Assembly (NCBI GenBank): GCA_943736015.1
Contig: OX031070.1
Coordinates: 20,977,673-21,041,672 of the forward strand
Reading direction: 5' to 3'
DNA from: Tridacna crocea
Lineage: Eukaryota > Mollusca > Bivalvia > Cardiida > Cardiidae
DNA: 64,000 bases
The notes under the pieces are model-generated. The model was not told the origin of the DNA. It saw only the letters and a program-made list of their open reading frames with translations, and searched no databases. This document shows positions 2,997-59,200 of the stretch, one piece after another (the first letter of the stretch is position 1; each line of letters opens with the position of its first letter). The position numbers and the translations under genes are program-made.

Positions 2997-3228
2997 TTAA
3001 CTCGTTACCTAACGACAATATTTTAGGGTTGTCCAAATCGAAAGCATTTGCAGAAGACAAAATAAAAGTGACTGAAAATTTGAAATTTGTTTAGTGAAGG
3101 GTAGAAAGCATTGTGGGAAAAAGGAGAAAATGCTGGTTACCAGCATTTTCTCCTTTTTCCACAATGTTTTCTAAAGGCTTCTTTCTCAGGGTAGTCAAAA
3201 GTAGGGATTGTGTGGTAATGGGTTAAAT
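2997..3228 (-). repeat. Palindromic TTAA MITE, subfamily I, full length
   Basis: TTAA flanks both ends (2997-3000 and 3225-3228). The long arm comes first. The palindrome is complete around GCTGGTTACCAGC. Confidence 0.9.
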
Positions 3229-3301
3229 GAGACATATAGGATCTGACATGAGATTGTGTATGAGATAGAATTTCGTTTCTACTAGTTTAGGGAAAATGTC
3301 C

Positions 3302-7290: not shown

Positions 7291-7519
7291 TTAACCCATT
7301 ACCACACAGTCCCTACTTTTGACGCCCCTCAGAATGAAGCCTTTAGAAAACATTGTGGGAAAAGAAGAAAATGCTGGTAACCAGCATTTTCTCCTTTTCC
7401 TACAATGTTTTCTACCCTTCACAAAACAAATTTCAAATTTTCAGTCATTTTTATTTTGTCATCTGCAAATGCTTTCAACTCTGACCAGTCTAAAATTTTG
7501 TCGTTTGGTAATGGGTTAA
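7291..7519 (+). repeat. Palindromic TTAA MITE, subfamily I, full length
   Basis: TTAA at both ends, with termini TTAACCCATTACCACAC and GTTTGGTAATGGGTTAA. Confidence 0.92.
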
Positions 7520-17678: not shown

Positions 17679-17907
17679 TTAACCCATTACCACACAATCC
17701 CTACTTTTGACGCCCCTGAGAAAGAAGCCTTTAGAAAACATTGTGGGAAAAGGAGAAAATGCTGGTAACCAGCATTTTCTCCTTTTCCCACAATGTTTTC
17801 TACCCTTCACAAAACAAATTTCAAATTTTCAGTCACTTTTATTTTGTCGTCTGCAAATGCTTTCAATTTAGACTAGTCTAAAATATTTTCATTTGGTAAT
17901 GGGTTAA
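17679..17907 (+). repeat. Palindromic TTAA MITE, subfamily I, near-consensus
   Basis: TTAA at both ends and a perfect palindrome. With 57468-57696 it is among the least diverged copies and a good reference for length (229 bp). Confidence 0.95.
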
Positions 17908-34475: not shown

Positions 34476-34643
34476 GACACTTCTAGCTATTACAACCTGA
34501 ATGTTTCAATTGCTCGTTTGACATTAACTCATTACCAAACAGCAATATTTTAGGCTTGTCCAAATCAAAAACATTTGCAGACAACATAATAAAAGTGACT
34601 GAAAATTTGAAATTTGTTTTGTGAAGGGGAGAAAACATTGTGG

Positions 34644-34851
34644 TCTTACGAACGAAGTCCGTAACAAAGAAACAAATGAATAAATGCATGGCAGAAATAA
34701 GGATCGGAGTGGGATTCGAACTCCGAACTCCCGGACGCAAAGCCAATACCCTAACCACTGAGCCAAAGAGATATCTCCCTGATGCAGTAGCCAGGTATTG
34801 TATTTAAATCGGGAGTATATGCCATGCAGGAAGGAGTGGTCTCCCGTAACA
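34644..34851 (-). repeat. TRIM 3' LTR
   Basis: 208 bp; on the minus strand it begins TGTTACGGGAG and ends TTCGTTCGTAAGA. ~99% identical to the 5' LTR. Confidence 0.9.
34700..34772 (-). promoter_or_regulatory. tRNA-like Pol III promoter in 3' LTR
   Basis: A box TGGCTCAGTGG (34755-34765) and B box GTTCGAATCCC (34711-34721) sit at tRNA positions 8 and 52. CGGAGT / ACTCCG closes a stem around the B box. The acceptor stem and anticodon arm are poor, so it is tRNA-derived and not a tRNA gene. Confidence 0.8.
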
Positions 34852-34862
34852 CACCCCCTCTT
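34852..34862 (-). promoter_or_regulatory. TRIM polypurine tract
   Basis: Minus-strand AAGAGGGGGTG abuts the 3' LTR start (TGTTACGG), the place where plus-strand priming is expected. Confidence 0.8.
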
Positions 34863-34949
34863 AAAGTCATCATTTATTGATGACTCAAAGCCTTATTAGG
34901 CAGGAAGTCCGATTTTGGACAACAAATGGGATTAATGGCTCAATGGCCA

Positions 34950-34967
34950 ATCCCGGACGAGCCCCCA
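34950..34967 (-). promoter_or_regulatory. TRIM primer binding site, tRNA-Pro type
   Basis: TGGGGGCTCGTCCGGGAT on the minus strand, directly after the 5' LTR with no gap. It is the known 18-nt complement of the tRNA-Pro 3' end used by many gammaretroviruses and ERVs. Confidence 0.88.
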
Positions 34968-35175
34968 TCTTACGAACGAAGTCCGTAACAAAGAAACAAA
35001 TGAATAAATGCATGGCAGAAATAAGGATCGGAGCGGGATTCGAACTCCGAACTCCCGGACGCAAAGCCAATACCCTAACCACTGAGCCAAAGAGATATCT
35101 CCCTGACGCAGTAGCCAGGTATTGTATTTAAATCGGGAGTATATGCCATGCAGGAAGGAGTGGTCTCCCGTAACA
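34968..35175 (-). repeat. TRIM 5' LTR
   Basis: 208 bp, same boundaries as the 3' LTR. Its outer end meets the GTGG duplication at 35176. Confidence 0.9.
35024..35096 (-). promoter_or_regulatory. tRNA-like Pol III promoter in 5' LTR
   Basis: A box at 35079-35089 and B box at 35035-35045. The closing stem has one T-G pair in place of T-A. A transcript from here meets no TTTT until the flanking MITE near 34632. Confidence 0.8.
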
Positions 35176-35583
35176 GTGGAAAAAGGAGAAAATGCTGGTT
35201 ACCAGCATTTTCTCCTTTTTCCACAATGGTTTTTTGAGGCTTCTTTCTCAGGGTTGTCAAAAGTAGGGATTGTGTGGTAATGGGTTAAATGGGTATTTTA
35301 CGGTGTTTTCAACATCATTTCAGTCACACCAAGGCCAAAGCTCACATACGCATGTTGTCCTCAGGTTTCAAGAGTATTTGGCAACAGTGTTGAAGTGTCT
35401 TGCTCAAGGATACTCCTACGAAAAACCTCATGGATCCAGTGATGCCAAAACTTGAGGCTTCCATGTCACCAATCCAACACTTTACCACACTGGACCCCAG
35501 TCTAGGCGATATAGACATTTGAGATCAAAGAACAGATTGCACATTGTGCAATGGCTTCAAAAGCAGCAAGTTTGTAAGTTACA

Positions 35584-36568: not shown

Positions 36569-36667
36569 TATATCGATGGGTGAGTGCAACACTGTTCTAA
36601 GTGCCTGTACATTCTACAGGCAAATGTACAGGCACTTAGAATAGTGTTGCACTCACCTACTGATATA
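36569..36667. repeat. 99-bp near-perfect hairpin element
   Basis: Arms of ~44 bp (GGGTGAGTGCAACACTGTTC, TAAGTGCCTGTACATT and their complements) around the 10-base loop CTACAGGCAA. Outer ends TATATCGATG / CTACTGATATA have diverged slightly. Confidence 0.8.
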
Positions 36668-47200: not shown

Positions 47201-50200
47201 CTGGGCTGTAGATATGTAGTAACCCATGGCCAGGGGCTGTTGTAGAAGGTTTGGGTCATCTTGTGGGTCATTGGTTGCAGAACTGGGATTTGCCTGTTTT
47301 AAAAGATGCAAAACAAGTCTTATACCAGTTTCAAAAGCCATATATGTGAAATTAAACTCCTTTATATTTGACACTATTTCCACTCACAGTTATGTCATTG
47401 TGAAACCTCTCTTTTGCATATTTGGTACAAAAAAGAGAACAGCCTGCATGTAACTAGTAAACTGCATCACTGCATCCCAATAAATGTGCCACTGCTAGTA
47501 TAGAGAGTTACACTTGACCATTTCATATATGTTGCACAGATGGTCTCCGTAATTAAGTAAAAGCATGTCTTTCACTAGCAAAGTTCTACTTACCATGTAA
47601 TCAAGAAAATTACGAACCCTATGACACAATTTGTAAATATTGCAGGTAAAGAAGAAATTGCTGGAAACTATCATTTACTGCTTTCCATATAATGTTTTCT
47701 GCTTTTTGGGGTCAAAATTACTGAATCTTATGCGAAAGCTTTTAATTTGGCTCAGTGTAAAATTTTGTAGTTTGGTAAAGTGCAACATCACACAGGTTTC
47801 ATCATTTTCAAAAGAATGGTGAAATCTATACCATGTGACTTACCATGGAGATTCCATTCAGTTTATTTGGAGATGTTCGTCCCAGATCCATGAGTCCAGG
47901 GGATCCAGGATTATCCTGCCTTGGGGACCCTGGTGGTGAATTTGTCATGGAAACAAACACATCCATAAGACTCCCGAAGTCATCATTATTGTTTTCAAAA
48001 TCGGACAGATCCACACCAAATTCCAGATTATGTCCTCCCAAATCTATTCCTCCAGTAGAATCCAGCTGTATTTGATTAGTGTTTGCCTGAGCTGTGGCTG
48101 ATGTAGGGAACACAAGGATATGGGAGCAGGAGCAGTCCCTGGGGGTCTGTAGAGGACAATTACTACCCTGTTTCTCCTCGGGGTTCACACAGTCGGGTAA
48201 AACAAGAAAGGAGTTTTGCTGTTCAATGGAAGTGAGACAGGCACTAACAATGTATGGGTAATCTCCGTTAGTTTGATATGAACACTGAGAGCACATTTCA
48301 CGCATTCGTTTACTGCATTGCTGAATGTTTTTCTTGCTTAAAAGTCCCGACCATCCTGTAATATACAAAATACTTTACATATTTGAATTAATATACATTT
48401 TTCTATTCAAACCTTTACAAAACCGTCATTAACCAGCATTTTCTTTTTTCCCACACTGTTTTCTTTCCTATCAAACACCAATCTGATGATATGAGCAATA
48501 TCTAATTTGTTATCTACAAATGCTTTCAAATTGGACCAGACAGAAATTCTGTCTTTTGTACCAGAACTAGTTTAAGAACCTAGAAATTATTAGAACTATC
48601 CATCAAGAAATTTTGAATCAGCAAAAAATAATCAGTTTCTCAGTCTTACACCATATTGGTTCATCTACAATATGGTGCGAATAGTGATGTATTATTCTAT
48701 TTCTTAAGCATCTATATCTAATATACATAGTAATTTCAGTCACTAGACTGCCAAACAAATGAAAGAGACATTCCAGGGTGTAAAAAAACCATAGAACATT
48801 GCAATTGTAACTTTATTGGGGACATACAAAATTTAGCATTTATACCTTTTTTTGACAGTGACAGCCAAAAACATTATCTTTTAAAGATAAACCTAAACGG
48901 CTGGTCTAAGGTAAATGGTGTACATACTTTGCAGTCCAATCTTGGTTTACCTAATCACTGGGGCTTCTTTAATAGTCTTAGGCTGTTTGAGTTAGAATAT
49001 CTACAGAAGATAACATTTTCTGTGCATTCTTGGAACAACTTGCATAGTCCAGATGAAGCTTAAGATATGCACATACCTTCTTAATGCCAATCAACATTTG
49101 GTCAGCAAGTTGTAATGCAAAAGGAGTTTTTCACCTGATCATGCAAATTATCAAAGTGTCCCCCCCTCCCCCTTAACTCTTTACCACACGACAAAATTTT
49201 AGACTGGTTCAAATTGAAAGCATTTGCAGATGACAAAATAAAGCTGATTGAAAAATTGAAATTTGTTATGGGGAGGGTAGAAAACACTGTGGGAAAAGGA
49301 GAAAATGCTGGTTACCAGCATTTTCTCCTTTTCCTACAGTGTTTTCAAAAGGCTTCTTTCTCAGGGGCGTCAAAAGTAGGGATTGTGTGGTAATGAGTTA
49401 AATGAGGTTATCTTATGAAGTGATGTATTTAACAGCAGGGAAGTTCAGTGTTTACATTACGTGACACCTTTCATAAATAGATGTTTGCAATAGATAACAG
49501 ATACTACACAGAAGTGAAAACATGAAACAAACTATATGAACTTGTCTTACCCTTTAGTTCTCCGTGACCGATACGTCCAAACCGACAGATCACAACTCTG
49601 CACGGTTTAGATGACATTGAAATCACACCTTGAATAAACTCCCACAGTTTACCCAAACCAATTTTTCTTGCAGATGTTTTCTTTCTTCGATTCCTGAAAT
49701 GGTAATAATAGTTATCAACTGAAAATATACATTTACTTACTTTTTATGGTGCTTTAGGTCATTTCATCATTGTATCATTTATGTCATTTTCTCCTGTACA
49801 CTTATCCATGCTTTTCTCGAGTTTCTTTACCATTACTTTGTACAATGTTCTTTCTAAGCCTCTGTCTACTTTCCCACATATCCGTCATTGAAACAATGAT
49901 CAGCAGTGAGATAAAAATGAATCCTGTAGCTATGATTATTGGCAGTCCTTAGAAAAAAAAAACTACCAGCTGGGAATTAGAGACAGAAACCCTTTGGTTT
50001 CATGTTTGGTTTTACTTGTCACTGAACTACTGATCTCAATGGACTTCTACATAAACATGTCACTTTTTCATTCCTCTAGAATATATCTTCAACGAGTAGT
50101 AAAATATGCTCATGTATTTTATCTTCACTTTCACTAACAATAAGGACTTGAGTACCTTTGGCAAAATGGAGGTCAAGATCAGACTGCACAAAATGCACAG

Positions 50201-53200
50201 TTGAATTCTACAATATGATAAAAATCATCTTGGCCTGCATTCATAAGGTACTTAAAAAGCTCGAAAAAAAGAGTGCTCATCATAGGTTACTGATACATCT
50301 AAAAGTCTGAAAAAAAAGAAAATGAGTTAGATTCGGAGTTATTGAGAAATGCTCTAAGGAGAAATAACACATGTACACAAGTAAATCATAGGAGGAATCC
50401 CCCACCTGTTTGGTATATCAATGTTTATTGTGCAGGTCTCCACAGTTTCTCCCCTTTCATCTGTACAACAAGCAAGCAACCAGCGCTGATCTTCAGACAA
50501 ACAGTAGACACACAACAAGATAGTACTATCGTCTTTCTTCTCACTGCAGGACTCTGCCAGCTGTTCTTGCTTGTCTTTGATAGGTGCAAGCACAAATGGT
50601 GGACTGTAGAGTTTATATGTTTCACTCTGAAACATTGAAGTAAAACAGTAAGAAACCATTTCAGTGACACATTTATAAAATATTCCAGCCAATAAAAATG
50701 AGCAAACTGTTAAACTCTTTTGGTGTCATGTGTATGAAATCCACCTCTTTCAATGACTTAAAAAGTAACCCCAAAAATACTCATATACATTCTTTTTTTT
50801 GTAATATAGTCTAAACTTTACAAGCTGCAGCATAGATCCAAGGTAAAACTGCATTCTGTGCAGTCTGATCTTGACCTATGCCGTCCTCAAAACTCCAAGT
50901 ATGTTGCTGAAAGGGTTAAAGGCTAAAAACATGCTTCAAGAATTCTTTCGTAATATAAAAGCACCAAAGCATGACATTCCTAAAAGTTCTTTTTCTGTAA
51001 TTCTTTATCATACAATCCTGAGTTTTAACAACCGTACGAAAAAAAGCTTTTGAAACATTGTGGGAAAAGGAGAAAATGCTGGTAACCAGCATTTTCTCTT
51101 TTTCCCATAATGTTTTCTTATCTTTTACAGACAAATCCCATTACCTGTGCCACATTTACCATGTCCTTTGGAAATGCTTTCAATTTGGATCTGTCTAAAG
51201 TTTGTTATGTGGTACAGAGTGAACCAGTACCTTTAAGGACAACACTGTTGAAAGGCACAGGTCCATCTATCCGTTTACCAAGGAAAGCCTTTGAAAATAT
51301 TATTTTCCAGAATTTGTTTCTGCTCTTTCAACAACAAATCTGCATATGAATCCAGAAGGAAAATATAAACTTTGGGGAGGAGGGGGTGGTGAGGAGGGAA
51401 GAACCCTTTGGAGTGGAAGAGTTTTCCACCATATGCATGCTTTAGACATCATAAACAAACCACTGCGAATAGTCGACATAAATTTCTTCTTCAACTCATA
51501 AATACCTACCCCAGTTCGCCGTTTCAGCATGGACTCGGCAGCTGCTGCAGGACCAAACCCTGTGAGGGAGCGACCTAGAACTGTGTGACTAAGGTTCCAT
51601 CTACAGCTTGTAAATACTGAGAAGGCAATATTCTGTAATAACTGGAACTGGGTATTACTGTCTTTGAAATCCATGACGGTTTGTAATGGCACAATCTGAA
51701 AACAGCAATGAATGGTCTTTCAAGATGAGCTGACTACAAAGATAATGTAGCAAAGTAAAATGATTTCAAGCAAAAGGATATAACACTGATCCCAAACAGT
51801 GCCACAAAAATGAAATTGTAATCTTAGTCAAGACATAACTGTCAGACATTTTTTTGGGGGCTAGATTGTCCCATATCAGCTCACATTGTAGATCCGAGCT
51901 TAGATTGTGCATTTTGATCTTGACCTGCACTGAATGCACAAACAGCTGAAAATTTGAAAGGATAGTTATTGTAAAGTCCTCTACATCAATGTAAAGGAAG
52001 TTGTCAACAGACAAAAATGTGTCAAACTTGTCACTTGTTTCATGCTACTCTCCGGTTTTTGGGCGATTCCTTTTCGCCTAGTAGTAGTAGAAATTTTTAA
52101 TCATTAGCCTAAAAAAAGGCTTATCATAATTTTTTGCAGTATTTCTATGGCACAGAAACTATGACTTTTAAGATTACATCATAGACATTTAACCTTCAAA
52201 ACCTGACATTAATAATGTTGAAAAATTTAACCTTTTACCACGCAATGCCGACATTTCTTTAATATCAAGGAAAAAATCAAACCATTTGGGCCACACTTCA
52301 ATTGTCATCTTCAAATACTTTCAATTAGGACAGGGCTGAAATTTTGTTGTGTGGTACAGGGTTAAATAAACAGGGTGCAAAGGATTTATATGGTTCAAGT
52401 GAAAAATGCTATTTCGCTTTCATCTCGAAGAAACGTTTCGTTCAGAGGATTTTGTAACCTATACACCTCCTTAACTTTGTTGGGTTTTGAGGGGATGGAG
52501 AATAGAGAGAGGAACGAGAAAGTATTGCACCAAAGAAACAAAATATTTACTCACTTGTAAGTAGACATTACTCTGCATGATTTCAGGCAGTTTTGGCACA
52601 ATTTCTTGATAGCACTTCAATAAGCCGATAACAGCCAGTCGGTTGAGATCATCCCAGTCTTGGGCATAGGTAAACGGGTTAATAAGATATATCACAATGG
52701 CTGGACATTCATGGCTGTCCGGTAGATCGTCATGGGTATCACGCTGACCAGTACTCTCACCCTGAGAACTCTCTGTAAACAAGCAATTTCATTGAAATGA
52801 TTTCCACTGCCGAAAAGTTTACTTGACTGTGTAATTTAAAAATCGCTCCCAGTTGACCATTTTGATCACGTCAAAAAATCAGCCGAAAGGATAGTTGTAC
52901 ACATGTATAAAGTTTCATGAAATTTCATCCAATGGCATTGGAGATATTCTCCAGAACAGATAGACGGACAATGCTAAAACTATATCCCTCTGCCTTCCGT
53001 GTGGAATAATAACAATATGTGAGCTGTGCTCTAGCAAGATGGGGCTTAGTGCATCTCTGCCAGGCATTATACCAATAACAGGAGTTGAATTCTTTCAAGA
53101 AATTCTGGAGGACCATAGCAGGATTATTTCGGTGAAGCTTAGTGAAAAATGGATGGGTAATTAGAGAGATGTTTGAAATTTAAGACCTGTCACTTGTGCC

Positions 53201-56200
53201 ACACTGAATGTTGCCTGTACTTTCCAACTTTCAAAAAATTTGTATTGTTTGGTAAAGGGTTTAACCCATTACAACACAATCCCTACTTTTGACGACCCTG
53301 AAAAAGAAGCCTTTAGAAAACATGGTGGGAAAAGGTGAAAATGCTGGAAACCAGAATTTTCTCCTTTTCCCACAATGTTTTCTACTCTATACAAAACAAA
53401 TTTTGCTTCTATTTTGCCATCTGCAAATGCTTTCGATTTGGACAAGCCTAAAATTTTGTCGTGTGGTAAAGGATTTAACTCCTTCTCCCACAAAAATTTC
53501 AGTTTTTGACAACACTGATAGAGAAGTCTTAGGGTAACACTGCGGGAAAAAGGAGAAAACGCATTATCTCATTTTCAAAGACGAACCTGATGATTGGAGT
53601 CCAATTATTTTAGCAACATGTATAAAAACAGTGCTGAAAAAATATAATGGACTAGATCTATTTCAATTATGAAAAACATCCGAAATATGGAATTTATCAT
53701 TGCTGCTATGGCCAGAATATGTGACAAAGTAGCAGATGGTGCAGATCTAAGATCAGACTGCACATTCTGTGTACTTCTGATCTTGATCTACACTCTGCAA
53801 AAACAACTTAAATCAGTTCCAGAAGGTTAAACTTTGTTGTATGGTAAGAGATTAAGATAAAATGTATGATTTACCTCTTTCCTCTGAACTAGAATTATTT
53901 AGAGTATCTGAGTTGGTGTTTACTTCTGGAGGTCTGTGAGGAGGTGCACGCTGACTAGATTTACTCGCCGCAAACATACTTTTCAGATCCTGCTGGGCCA
54001 AAAATGGAGCTGGAAATGAAATATACTTCCAAATTCAGTGCTAAAATACATGAAAAAAGGCATTTTTTGTGGGTATAATCCAGTAAAAACCCACTGGCAT
54101 ATTGTAATATCAAGGCAGTTTTTCATTAAACAGCATAGAGCAAGTCTCAAACCAGAATCAACAAAATGTGCTCTCTGACCTTTATCTCCTTACCATACAA
54201 TCCAGAGTTTAAACAACACTGAAGAATGCTTTCCAAAACACTGAGATAGGAGGAGAAAAGGCTTGAAGCAAACGTTTTCTTCTTTTCCATTTTTTTTTTT
54301 TAAAAACTCTATAATCAATGGCAGAAATTATCATTTGCGCTACTTTTATTATTCTGTCTCCATAATGCTTTCACTTTGGCCTAGCCTAAAAGATTGGTGT
54401 TTTGTACCAAGATAATTTTCTCTGTTAACCCTTTACTCCGTACTCATTTCTATGCATTGCATGTAGGAGCTTTAGGATAAAATTGTGGCAAAAGGTGAAA
54501 TAGCTTGTCACAAGCTTTTATATGCTATCAAAAGGTGTCATATACACATAAGAAACAGCTTCATCCTCGCTGGGTCAATTTAGGGTCAATTACAGATACC
54601 ATAAAAGTGCCTTATGGGGTAAAGGGTTAAAAGGTAATGGTCCTTGGCAATCTGTATTAAAGCCAAAACAAATTGTCCTTGAGCAATCTTTTTAAGCACA
54701 TCGCTCCAAATTCTCTACTGGCTACATTTTCATATAAACATACTCAACACAATGTGACAGAAGAATTATTTCAGGTGGAAGAAACTAGACAGGGAATCTG
54801 ATTTTCTGAGTCAGTCTCATATAAATCTGTTTGCTATTGAATTATTAGTACTAATATCTATGTATAGTAAGAATATATCATTTTTCTTTGTGTAAACACT
54901 TGTGTGGCGTCTGTGGCTGTGAGTTAGAGTGTCATCCTCATAACTAAAAGGTCCTGAGTTCGATACTCGGGAGAGGGTATCAACTTTGGGATTTTTCATT
55001 GGCCCACACATTCGGCGCGAGTACTGGTATAGTTCAAAGGAAGCAGAATCGAAACAGGTGAGTATAAGTTGTTAGAACTTGTTTCTCAATTGATGTTTCA
55101 CTTTGGCCTAGCCTATGGACATTTCGTACCAAAACCATTTCATACCAGTCATTTCGTACCATAGGATTGGTCATTTCGTACCATGAAATTACCATTTCGT
55201 ACCATAGGATTGGTCATTTCGTACCATGATATTAACAATTCATACCATATGTGTGGTCATCTTAAATCATGATTTCACCGAGAAAAGCTATTTAGATAAT
55301 AGAAAATGACAGTCGAACTTAGATGTAGAAAAGTTTATTTGATTAGATAATAGTACTTGCAATATAAAATAAGTTTATAATAGATATAAACGAAAACATA
55401 ATGGAAGAATGTATGGATGAATGTTGCAATGATGATTTTTTCCCTTTCACATTCGACGTTTCTGTTTCAATTTTGTAACAAATATAATCAATGGCAAACA
55501 CCAAACAAATTATTTTCAAATTCTTGATACCAATCTTGTAACAAACATTAACCAAACAATGTGATTATCTATCATCTGTTTCAAACATCGATTGTTTCCT
55601 TTAATTGATTGGCGAATATTTAATTCATATACATATGCAACAAACTTTAAAACTTTTTGCAATTATAAAAGCAACATGTTTTTTTTTCTTAAAAAAAATC
55701 ACCGAAAAATACTTTGTAATAATCGTTTGGTAAATAAACTATAAACTTGGTACAAATTCTAAGTTATGGTACGAAATTGTAATATTATGGTACGAAATGG
55801 CCAATGCATGGTACGAAATGGTAATTCTTTGGTACGAAATGGTAATATACTATATGGTACGAAATGGTTATGGTACGAAAAGACTGTATACCAAATAAAT
55901 ACGTTTAAATTAAACTAAACACTTCAACTTACTCATCTTCAAGAGCCCTGGATCGCTCACCTGAATTTTTGTAAGGACCATAGCCATTTTTTTTTTTTTT
56001 TGAGGTATTGAAACATTGGAAATAAAATCATTATTTTGCCAAGCAATTTTCAAAAGGTCATCTATGAAAGTCATTTCAAAATCTGACTAGCAGAAAAGAA
56101 GATTTTTTAGGAGTGTCTTAATTTCCGTACATAGTGCAAGTAACCCCCATTCACCAGAGCCATGTTTCTTGACCTATCAAAATTTCGCAAACAATTTTTG

Positions 56201-59200
56201 AAAAGCATCATTCAAGGAACACCACTGTGAAATTATTTTAAAATCCGACTTTTCGTTTCAGAGAAGAAGAATTTTCGAGAATTTCTTCATGTCCGTAGAG
56301 TGCAAGTAGCCCCCATTCACCAGAGCCATGTTTCTTGAAGGATCAAAATTTCATGAACAAATTTTGAAAAGGGTCACCCAAGGAACATCTCTGTGAAATT
56401 ATTTCAAAATCTGACAAGCAATTTCATCAAAGAAGACCTTTGAAGAATTTCTTCATTTCTGTACAGTGCAAGTAGCCCCCATTCACCAGAGCCATGTTTC
56501 TTGACCAATCAAAATTTCACAAATAGTTTTTGAAAAGGGTCACCAGCAAAACATCTCTGTGAAATTATTTCAAAATCTGACCAGCGGTTTCAGAGGAGAA
56601 GAATTTTTAAGAATTTCTTCATTTCTGTATAGTGCAAGTAGCCCCCACTGACCAGAGCCATGTTTCTTGACGGATCAAAATTTCACTCACAATTTTTGAA
56701 AAAGGTCACCCAAGGAACATCTCTGTGAAATTATTTTGAAATCTGGCCAGCGGTTTTAGAGAAGAAGATTTTTATAGAATTTCTTTTGTGAAAAATTTTT
56801 AAAGAGAACCTCCCAAGGAACATTCCAGCCAAGTTTGGCCCAAATTAGCTCAGCAGTTTAGGAGGAGTTGATGTTTAAAGAATTGTTGATGACACAAGAC
56901 GGACACCGGGTGATCCCAAAAGCTCCCCTTGAGCACGTTGTTGTTTAACATACCTAGTTGATGTTTACAGGCCTTTGCATACAGCCGTAACTTGGATGCA
57001 ATGTCACCATCCCCTATAAACTTGAACCAATCATCACAATCTAAATCACCAACTTTCTCTGCTGTGACTTTTCCCACTCGTAAAATACCATCCCTGAGTT
57101 TGTCTGAGACTGGACAATGGCGTCCCAAACGGCTCCACTCATAAACAGTGCCGAGTTCTTTGAAGAAGGATCGAACACCATTCATGACAAAATCATTCTC
57201 AGGTGTAACAATGACATAGGCTATGTCCCTGCGATGCCCATAAGGCTCCAACAAATTTTTGTCCTGTCAAAGAGATAGCATGAAAAACTTTTGTTAGATT
57301 TTTTGTTTAATATTTTAATTATTTTTCTTTTTTAAAAGTTACTGTATATAATTTTGATTTTTTTTTTTATGTCACATTTTTTTAACTCTAATAGTGCCAA
57401 AGATTTTCAATCTAGAAGTAACATTCAAATAATTGGTATCTCATGATTGCTTTTGTTTAGTGTTTCCTTAACCCATTACCACACAATCCCTACTTTTGAT
57501 GCCCCTGAGAAAGATGCCTTTAGAAAACATTGTGGGAAAAGGAGAAAATGCTGGTAACTAGCATTTTCTCCTTTTCCTACAATGTTTTCTACCATTCACA
57601 AAATAAATTTCAAATTTTCAGTCACTTTTATTTTGTCGTCTGCAAACGCTTTCAATTTGGACCTGTCTAAAATATTGTCGTTTGGTAATGGGTTAAAGAT
57701 ACGTGTGTGGATAAAAGATGATATTGCATGTATATTGGACACCGACTTTGACCTTCCCATGCTGCAAAAGCAACTTACATTGTAAAAGAAACATTTTTGC
57801 CTCTTCCACAATGTATTCAACAGTTTTCTTCCTTGAGGTTCATAAAATCTTTAATAAACTATAAAATTTTAATCTTGTCCATATTCAAGGCATTTGCAGA
57901 CAACAAAATAAAAGTGACTCAAAAACTTGAATTTTCTTTGGAAAGGTAGACTATTAGTGGGAAAAAGAGAAAATGCTTGTTATCAAAGGCTTTTTTTCTT
58001 GGAGTTTGTGCGTCAGAATTGAAGAGAGGTTAGAGAGTTAACTCATTACCAGGCAACATTATTTTAGACTTGTCCAGATCAAAAGCATTTGCAGATGACA
58101 AAATGAACATGACTGAAATTTTAAAATTTGTTTTGTGAAGGGTAGAAAACATTGTGGGGAAAGGAGAAAATGCTGGTTACCAGCTTTTTCTCCTTTTCCC
58201 ACAATGTTTTCAAAACGCTTCTTTTCAAGGGGCGTCAAAAGTAGGGATTGTGTGGTAATGGGAAAAACATAAGTTTGTTAGAGAAAATGTTAGGTCCATT
58301 ATGATGCTACCTAAAGGGTATAATAAATGAACATAGTAATCCAATAAACAGCTGAAATTTACAGAGAGCTGGGCTTGGCTAGCTTTAACCTTATATCAAA
58401 CTCCCAATTTTTAAAAACACAGGAAAAAGGCTTACAAAAACATTGTAGAAAAAGAGATATAGTGGTAAGCAGCATCTCCTCCTTTTACCACACTTTAAAT
58501 AACAGATTTATTATCTGAGCAACATAGATTATGTAGTACGGAAACATTTAGATAAGACCAGTCTTAAAGTTTTATTATTTGGAAATCCAATTACTCCTAT
58601 ACATCCCACTGAAAAAAGAATAACTGTCGGCGATGAAAAATATTCCACTTACCCAATATCTGACCGCAAACGGAGAAATATGTGCAGCATCTTTCTCACA
58701 GCCCACAAGTAATGATGGAATTGGCTGAGGCTCACTGTTCTCATCTGAACCTGTAAGGGGACAAATATTTGCCAAACTATTCATAGATTTTTGCATGCCG
58801 ATTCTGATTCCTAATTGTTAAGTCTATATGGACATTTTCTGAGTTGTTCTTATGCAAATTTGTGACAAGATATGGCTGCTAAAAGCCCTTATTTAACCCT
58901 ATACCACACAATCCTGACTTCTAACATCCCTGAATAAGAAACCTTTTTAAAAAACACTCTTAACCAGCATTTTCTCCTTTCCCACTATATTTTTTACCCT
59001 TTCCAAAACAATAATTGAAATTCAAGTCAATTTTATTCTGTCCTCTGCAAGTGCTTTTAATTTGGACCAGTCTATATAATTTCGTTGTTTGGTAAACAAT
59101 TAGGGTAGTATGCTACCACTCATCTACTTGGACTAGGTTAAAACTGCAACACACACACAAATTCAATGCACATTAAAAGTACATGTATATTAAATAATGC

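Follow-up and report, generated by a model that had tools for sequence, protein, structure and literature searches.

A 64,000-nt stretch of the Tridacna crocea genome (hereafter the window) carries a short element with two LTRs, each containing sequences that resemble the A and B boxes of a tRNA-type Pol III promoter. Which polymerase would transcribe such an element, and is it a new animal parallel to the plant Cassandra retrotransposons, as a sequence-only reading of the locus had proposed?

A complete TRIM inserted into a MITE

The element occupies 34644-35175 on the minus strand, with its 5' end at 35175, and is a 532-bp terminal-repeat retrotransposon in miniature (TRIM; Table 1). The features that define a TRIM are all directly visible: two LTRs, a total length below 1 kb, a 116-bp interior, a primer-binding site (PBS), a polypurine tract (PPT) and a short target-site duplication (TSD) of the integrase type. 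The interior, judged by length and not by a domain search, is too short for a retrotransposon gene. The PBS TGGGGGCTCGTCCGGGAT can pair with the tRNA-Pro 3' end at 18 of 18 positions, CCA included. The same 18-mer is contained in an MLV-PBS probe, the site being described there as that of the proline tRNA (PMC4587795), and makes up bases 1-18 of a reverse primer for human tRNA-Pro-TGG (PMC12217144); on these two grounds, TGGGGGCTCGTCCGGGAT is a perfect tRNA-Pro site. Just upstream of the PPT lies a 9-bp hairpin, GAGTCATCA-ATAAA-TGATGACTT (34864-34886, minus strand), the loop and first stem pair of which are spanned by the sole AATAAA of the TRIM.

Table 1. Features of the TRIM and of its insertion site, in window positions
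Feature	Position	Strand	Remark
Complete TRIM	34644..35175	-	TGTTAC...GTAAGA; two-copy 208-nt direct repeat
5' LTR, 208 bp	34968..35175	-	direct-repeat detection
3' LTR, 208 bp	34644..34851	-	206/208 identical to 5' LTR
Internal region, 116 bp	34852..34967	-	between the LTRs
PBS TGGGGGCTCGTCCGGGAT	34950..34967	-	abuts 5' LTR edge; opens interior
PPT AAGAGGGGGTG, one T	34852..34862	-	abuts 3' LTR
tRNA-like segment, 5' LTR, bases 1-73	35024..35096	-	boxes and spacing
tRNA-like segment, 3' LTR	34700..34772	-	offset 324 from 5' LTR copy
A box TGGCTCAGTGG	35079..35089 (5' LTR); 34755-34765 (3' LTR)	-	sequence
B box GTTCGAATCCC	35035..35045 (5' LTR); 34711-34721 (3' LTR)	-	sequence
TATA-like TTTAAATA	35125..35132 (5' LTR); 34801-34808 (3' LTR)	-	putative function
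First TTTT downstream of TRIM, in host MITE	34632..34635	-	candidate Pol III stop
TSD GTGG, left	34640..34643	.	flanks TRIM
TSD GTGG, right	35176..35179	.	flanks TRIM
MITE copy split by TRIM	34524..35288	.	TTAA at both ends; 229 bp without insert

The LTR termini are TG...GA, the usual termini being TG...CA. The two LTRs differ at two of 208 bases, and at both positions the 5' LTR has CG and the 3' LTR has CA, which suggests CpG decay in a young element. Both differences fall outside the A and B boxes, and two changes prove nothing about the conservation of the boxes.

The TRIM lies within a MITE copy. We joined the two flanks with a single GTGG and compared the junction against the window. 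The junction was crossed by at least 15 bases on each side in 60 of the 152 alignments of the joined flanks, a number to be read with the partly palindromic structure of the MITE, which allows one copy to yield more than one alignment. The best empty-site alignment had 92% identity across 233 columns and a single 1-base gap, placed at the junction, and the second best had 90% over 229, ungapped. These alignments are to MITE copies, which shows the empty site directly in paralogues and identifies it as an ordinary copy of the family, 229 bp long and TTAA-ended. One subsequent insertion into the MITE accounts for the TRIM together with its 4-bp duplication.

The MITE family itself measures about 229 bp and has a central palindrome, AAAGGAGAAAATGCTGGTTACCAGCATTTTCTCCTTT; examples lie at 2997-3229, 17679-17907, 57468-57696 and 7291-7519. 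Matches with E <=1e-5 merge to 82 places covering 13,134 bases of the window, the TRIM flanks included. TTAA stands at both ends, at the printed coordinates, in three of the five copies whose ends were printed.

Elsewhere in the window, exons of MED13 are found at 47826-57266 on the minus strand, with MID_MedPIWI and Med13_C domains, and the TRIM lies outside the exons found. Four of the five open frames tried matched Pfam MED13 domains, three of them above the curated cut-off, while the fifth had no match; the frame at 56850-57266 also matches solved MED13 chains. The protein search gave 14 matches, two of them named (MED13 and a hypothetical protein). An inverted repeat of 45 bp with a 9-bp spacer and 91% complementarity is located at 36569-36667.

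No second copy of the TRIM was found in the 64,000-nt window. An exact-pattern search among viral contigs, in which records near the window's genome were possibly excluded, likewise found no copy. A scan of genome contigs gave one match, in a bacterial MAG, which we treat as a chance match; no tRNA was called there, and the surrounding 451 bases read by eye as bacterial coding sequence.

A tRNA-type box pair in each LTR

In each LTR, the starts of the A and B boxes are 44 bases apart. The sequence-only reading had described LTRs that each hold a tRNA-like promoter sequence, the boxes lying at canonical tRNA spacing. The LTR, PBS, PPT and TSD anatomy bears out the LTR element, and counting from 35096 as base 1 places the boxes at bases 8 and 52, as it had stated. 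The exact TGGCTCAGTGG/GTTCGAATCCC pair, with 28-45 bases between the boxes, occurs in the window only at the two LTR sites, and it occurred in none of 100 windows shuffled with dinucleotides preserved. A search with TRGYNNANNGG followed by GWTCRANNC, a loose consensus of the A and B boxes, returned only the same two sites, against a mean of 0.08 in shuffled sequence.

The boxes might nevertheless be chance matches, or the segment might encode a working tRNA. The tRNA spacing of the boxes would suit a working gene, and ARAGORN at lowered thresholds does return cloverleaves, namely a poor tRNA-Asn-like one with -ps60 and a poor tRNA-Ala with -ps50 and introns allowed. The shuffled windows speak against chance. 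As for a working gene, ARAGORN called no tRNA in the segment by default or with -ps80, and Rfam gave none at the gathering threshold nor among the 16 matches with E <=1 in 34500-35400. Counted by position, the acceptor stem retains two of seven pairs, the anticodon stem three of five and the T stem three of five, with only the D stem complete at four of four. The tRNA cloverleaf of the LTR segment is decayed. We thus rejected a functional tRNA gene for want of a default ARAGORN or Rfam call and for the large loss of its stems, and consider this pair of explanations very improbable. Since neither Rfam nor default ARAGORN recognises the segment, the boxes and their spacing are the evidence for a tRNA origin. 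Intact boxes combined with a lost fold are the pattern that would be expected of a captured promoter.

Repeats of about 200 bp with tRNA-like boxes look SINE-like, and the LTRs could on that account be two tandem copies of a tRNA-derived SINE. However, the tRNA-like part starts about 80 bases inside each repeat, not at its 5' end, a perfect tRNA-Pro PBS and a PPT adjoin the repeats, and a single 4-bp duplication brackets the whole 532-bp unit; we rejected a SINE dimer on these three observations. The sequence of the element also has no A-rich or simple tail. A SINE2 element is defined by a 5' tRNA head, a non-LTR tail and the lack of PBS and PPT, and the TRIM does not conform to this definition. 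A SINE dimer is accordingly scarcely credible.

A promoter of the Cassandra type was rejected as well, Rfam having given no 5S match at the gathering threshold nor among the 16 matches at E <=1 in 34500-35400.

T tracts, a TATA-like sequence and the choice of polymerase

On the transcribed strand, TTTT occurs nowhere in the 532-bp TRIM, and 8 bases separate the edge of the TRIM from the first flanking tract, which lies in the MITE. Both points agree with the sequence-only reading, and its proposal that a single Pol III transcript could span the TRIM is supported as a possibility.

We evaluated this absence on one LTR plus the interior, each taken once (324 nt), which corrects for the duplicated LTR. 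TTTT was absent from 19 of 2000 dinucleotide shuffles of the 324 nt (~1%) and from 115 of 2000 mononucleotide shuffles (~6%). Overlapping stretches of the window with similar T content, taken from both strands with the TRIM site excluded, lacked TTTT in 15 of 1434 cases. When the LTRs are treated as independent, TTTT is missing from nine of 1312 window stretches of any composition and from 11 of 2000 mononucleotide shuffles, a treatment that overstates the rarity. As an opposite-strand control, AAAA is present and not depleted, with 1129 of 2000 dinucleotide shuffles lacking it. The lack of TTTT in the TRIM is only moderately unusual, suggestive and not proof; as strong proof of Pol III selection it was downgraded, given the ~1% and ~6% obtained with the LTR counted once.

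The TATA-like box in U3 might instead serve as a Pol II promoter for the same TRIM, the tRNA-like stretch being the relic of a SINE that landed in an LTR. Pol II starts about 30 bases downstream of a TATA box. TTTAAATA begins at LTR position 44, which is 36 bases upstream of tRNA position 1, and a Pol II start about 30 bases past it would lie near the start expected for Pol III. AATAAA is also present once in the TRIM, in the interior. On the other hand, AATAAA is missing from both LTRs and ATTAAA from the entire TRIM; no ordinary LTR polyadenylation signal is thus apparent, which counts modestly against Pol II. The boxes are intact though the cloverleaf is gone, and TTTT is absent, neither of which favors a Pol II origin of the transcript. 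TATA-like sequences, moreover, can lie upstream of tRNA genes transcribed by Pol III too. Taken together, we regard Pol II transcription as unlikely, though it is the alternative to be taken most seriously.

Relation to Helenus and proposed transcription

The architecture had been taken for a new animal parallel to Cassandra, a claim that does not stand, as the design has already been published as Helenus, the name given to TRIMs with tRNA-derived sequence in their LTRs (Kojima 2024, PMC10886601). Helenus has been described there from six animal phyla, from fungi and from a lycophyte; it has a PBS and a PPT, measures 311-1263 bp, and in its animal families generates a 4-bp TSD; bivalve Helenus primers include tRNA-Pro, animal Helenus is linked to Gypsy, and conservation is seen around the boxes while the tRNAs are mostly non-functional (PMC10886601). 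The name TRIMp3 was proposed there for TRIMs of the Pol III type, and Pol III activity of Helenus is presented as lacking experimental validation as of 2024 (PMC10886601).

The element described here resembles Helenus in being a short, gene-less, two-LTR element with A and B boxes in each LTR, a PBS and a PPT. Its 532 bp fall within the published length range, its GTGG duplication has the 4 bp of the animal families, and a tRNA 3' end serves as the presumed primer in both, the tRNA-Pro PBS being shared with bivalve Helenus. A functional tRNA structure is unlikely in both. The tRNA-derived LTR sequence by which Helenus is named is represented here by the boxes and their spacing, without a tRNA profile match, whereas in the published families it was identified with Censor against tRNAs and SINE2 (PMC10886601). 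Neither published box motif is part of the naming rule: TGGCTCAGTGG agrees with TRGCY + YGG, the box A of most families, but the box B motif GGTTC, reported as conserved, is AGTTC here, and GGTTC occurs nowhere in the 532-bp TRIM. Compared by architecture through the published descriptions, the element thus looks like a member of Helenus, all of the traits tested fitting except the first base of the B box. It appears to be a further case, well preserved, of a known design and not a new invention.

Other TRIMs share part of this organization. The plant TRIM Cassandra also carries the promoter of a small Pol III RNA in each LTR, but there it is 5S rRNA sequence and here it is of the tRNA type; moreover, Cassandra is described as terminating in the 5S sequence of its 3' LTR, its RNA ends sharing an 18-bp repeat (PMC10886601), whereas the TRIM here has no T-tract stop in either LTR. 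Ajax, a nemertean TRIM, is likewise an animal element with a Pol III-type promoter sequence, but that promoter is 5S-derived and the TSD is 5 bp (PMC10886601). The animal elements biv-TRIM (PMC6934838) and PbTRIM (PMC3532108) have LTRs of similar size. PbTRIM shares the 4-bp TSDs but has a tRNA-Leu PBS (PMC3532108), while biv-TRIM differs in its interior of 77-80 bp, in having no clear PBS and in its conserved TGATCCCAAAGGAC, which is absent from the TRIM here (PMC6934838). The available texts of these two reports describe no tRNA-like LTR promoter for either element (PMC6934838, PMC3532108).

Pol III transcription is the likeliest reading of the TRIM; the anatomy, the empty site, the boxes and the lack of internal TTTT are observed directly, whereas the polymerase, start, stop and helper are inferred. 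We consider it probable that the element is a young Helenus-type TRIM transcribed by Pol III from a tRNA-type LTR promoter because it has the LTR, PBS, PPT and TSD anatomy, with a tRNA-Pro PBS and a clean empty site in MITE paralogues; because the A/B pair lies at tRNA spacing beyond chance, with the boxes kept and the fold lost; and because TTTT is absent while AAAA is not depleted, and the element fits the published traits of animal Helenus. Several points stand against this reading, namely the A before GTTC in the B box, the TATA-like box, the TG...GA ends, the failure of Rfam and default ARAGORN to recognise the segment, and the single copy.

If Pol III does transcribe the TRIM, the A and B boxes of the 5' LTR would be recognised by the Pol III factors of the host, and transcription would start near 35096, at about LTR position 75-80. 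The transcript would extend across the interior and all of the 3' LTR, and would probably end at the first flanking T tract. Minus-strand synthesis would then be primed at the PBS by tRNA-Pro and plus-strand synthesis at the PPT, while the R-U5 portion (~130 LTR bases common to both RNA ends) would permit strand transfer. An integrase of the Gypsy type acting in trans may insert the TRIM with its 4-bp duplication, to judge from structure and literature; both the size of the TSD and the published link between animal Helenus and Gypsy (PMC10886601) suggest a Gypsy helper. A further extension is possible, if rather doubtful: stop tracts may have been purged, such that the Pol III transcript, unlike that of Cassandra, spans the 3' LTR and takes a flanking terminator as SINEs do, the terminal redundancy then being the entire R-U5 of ~130 bases, and the TATA-like box, at a matching distance, may provide a combined Pol II/Pol III start.

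With LTRs that are 99% identical and a clean empty site, the TRIM is a structurally complete and little-diverged representative of the retrotransposons for which Pol III is the apparent polymerase. Being young and free of TTTT throughout its body, it would offer a good test case for Pol III transcription of Helenus. If Pol III drives it, the transcript would lack a cap and have its 3' end in flanking DNA, in contrast to the RNA of an ordinary LTR element.
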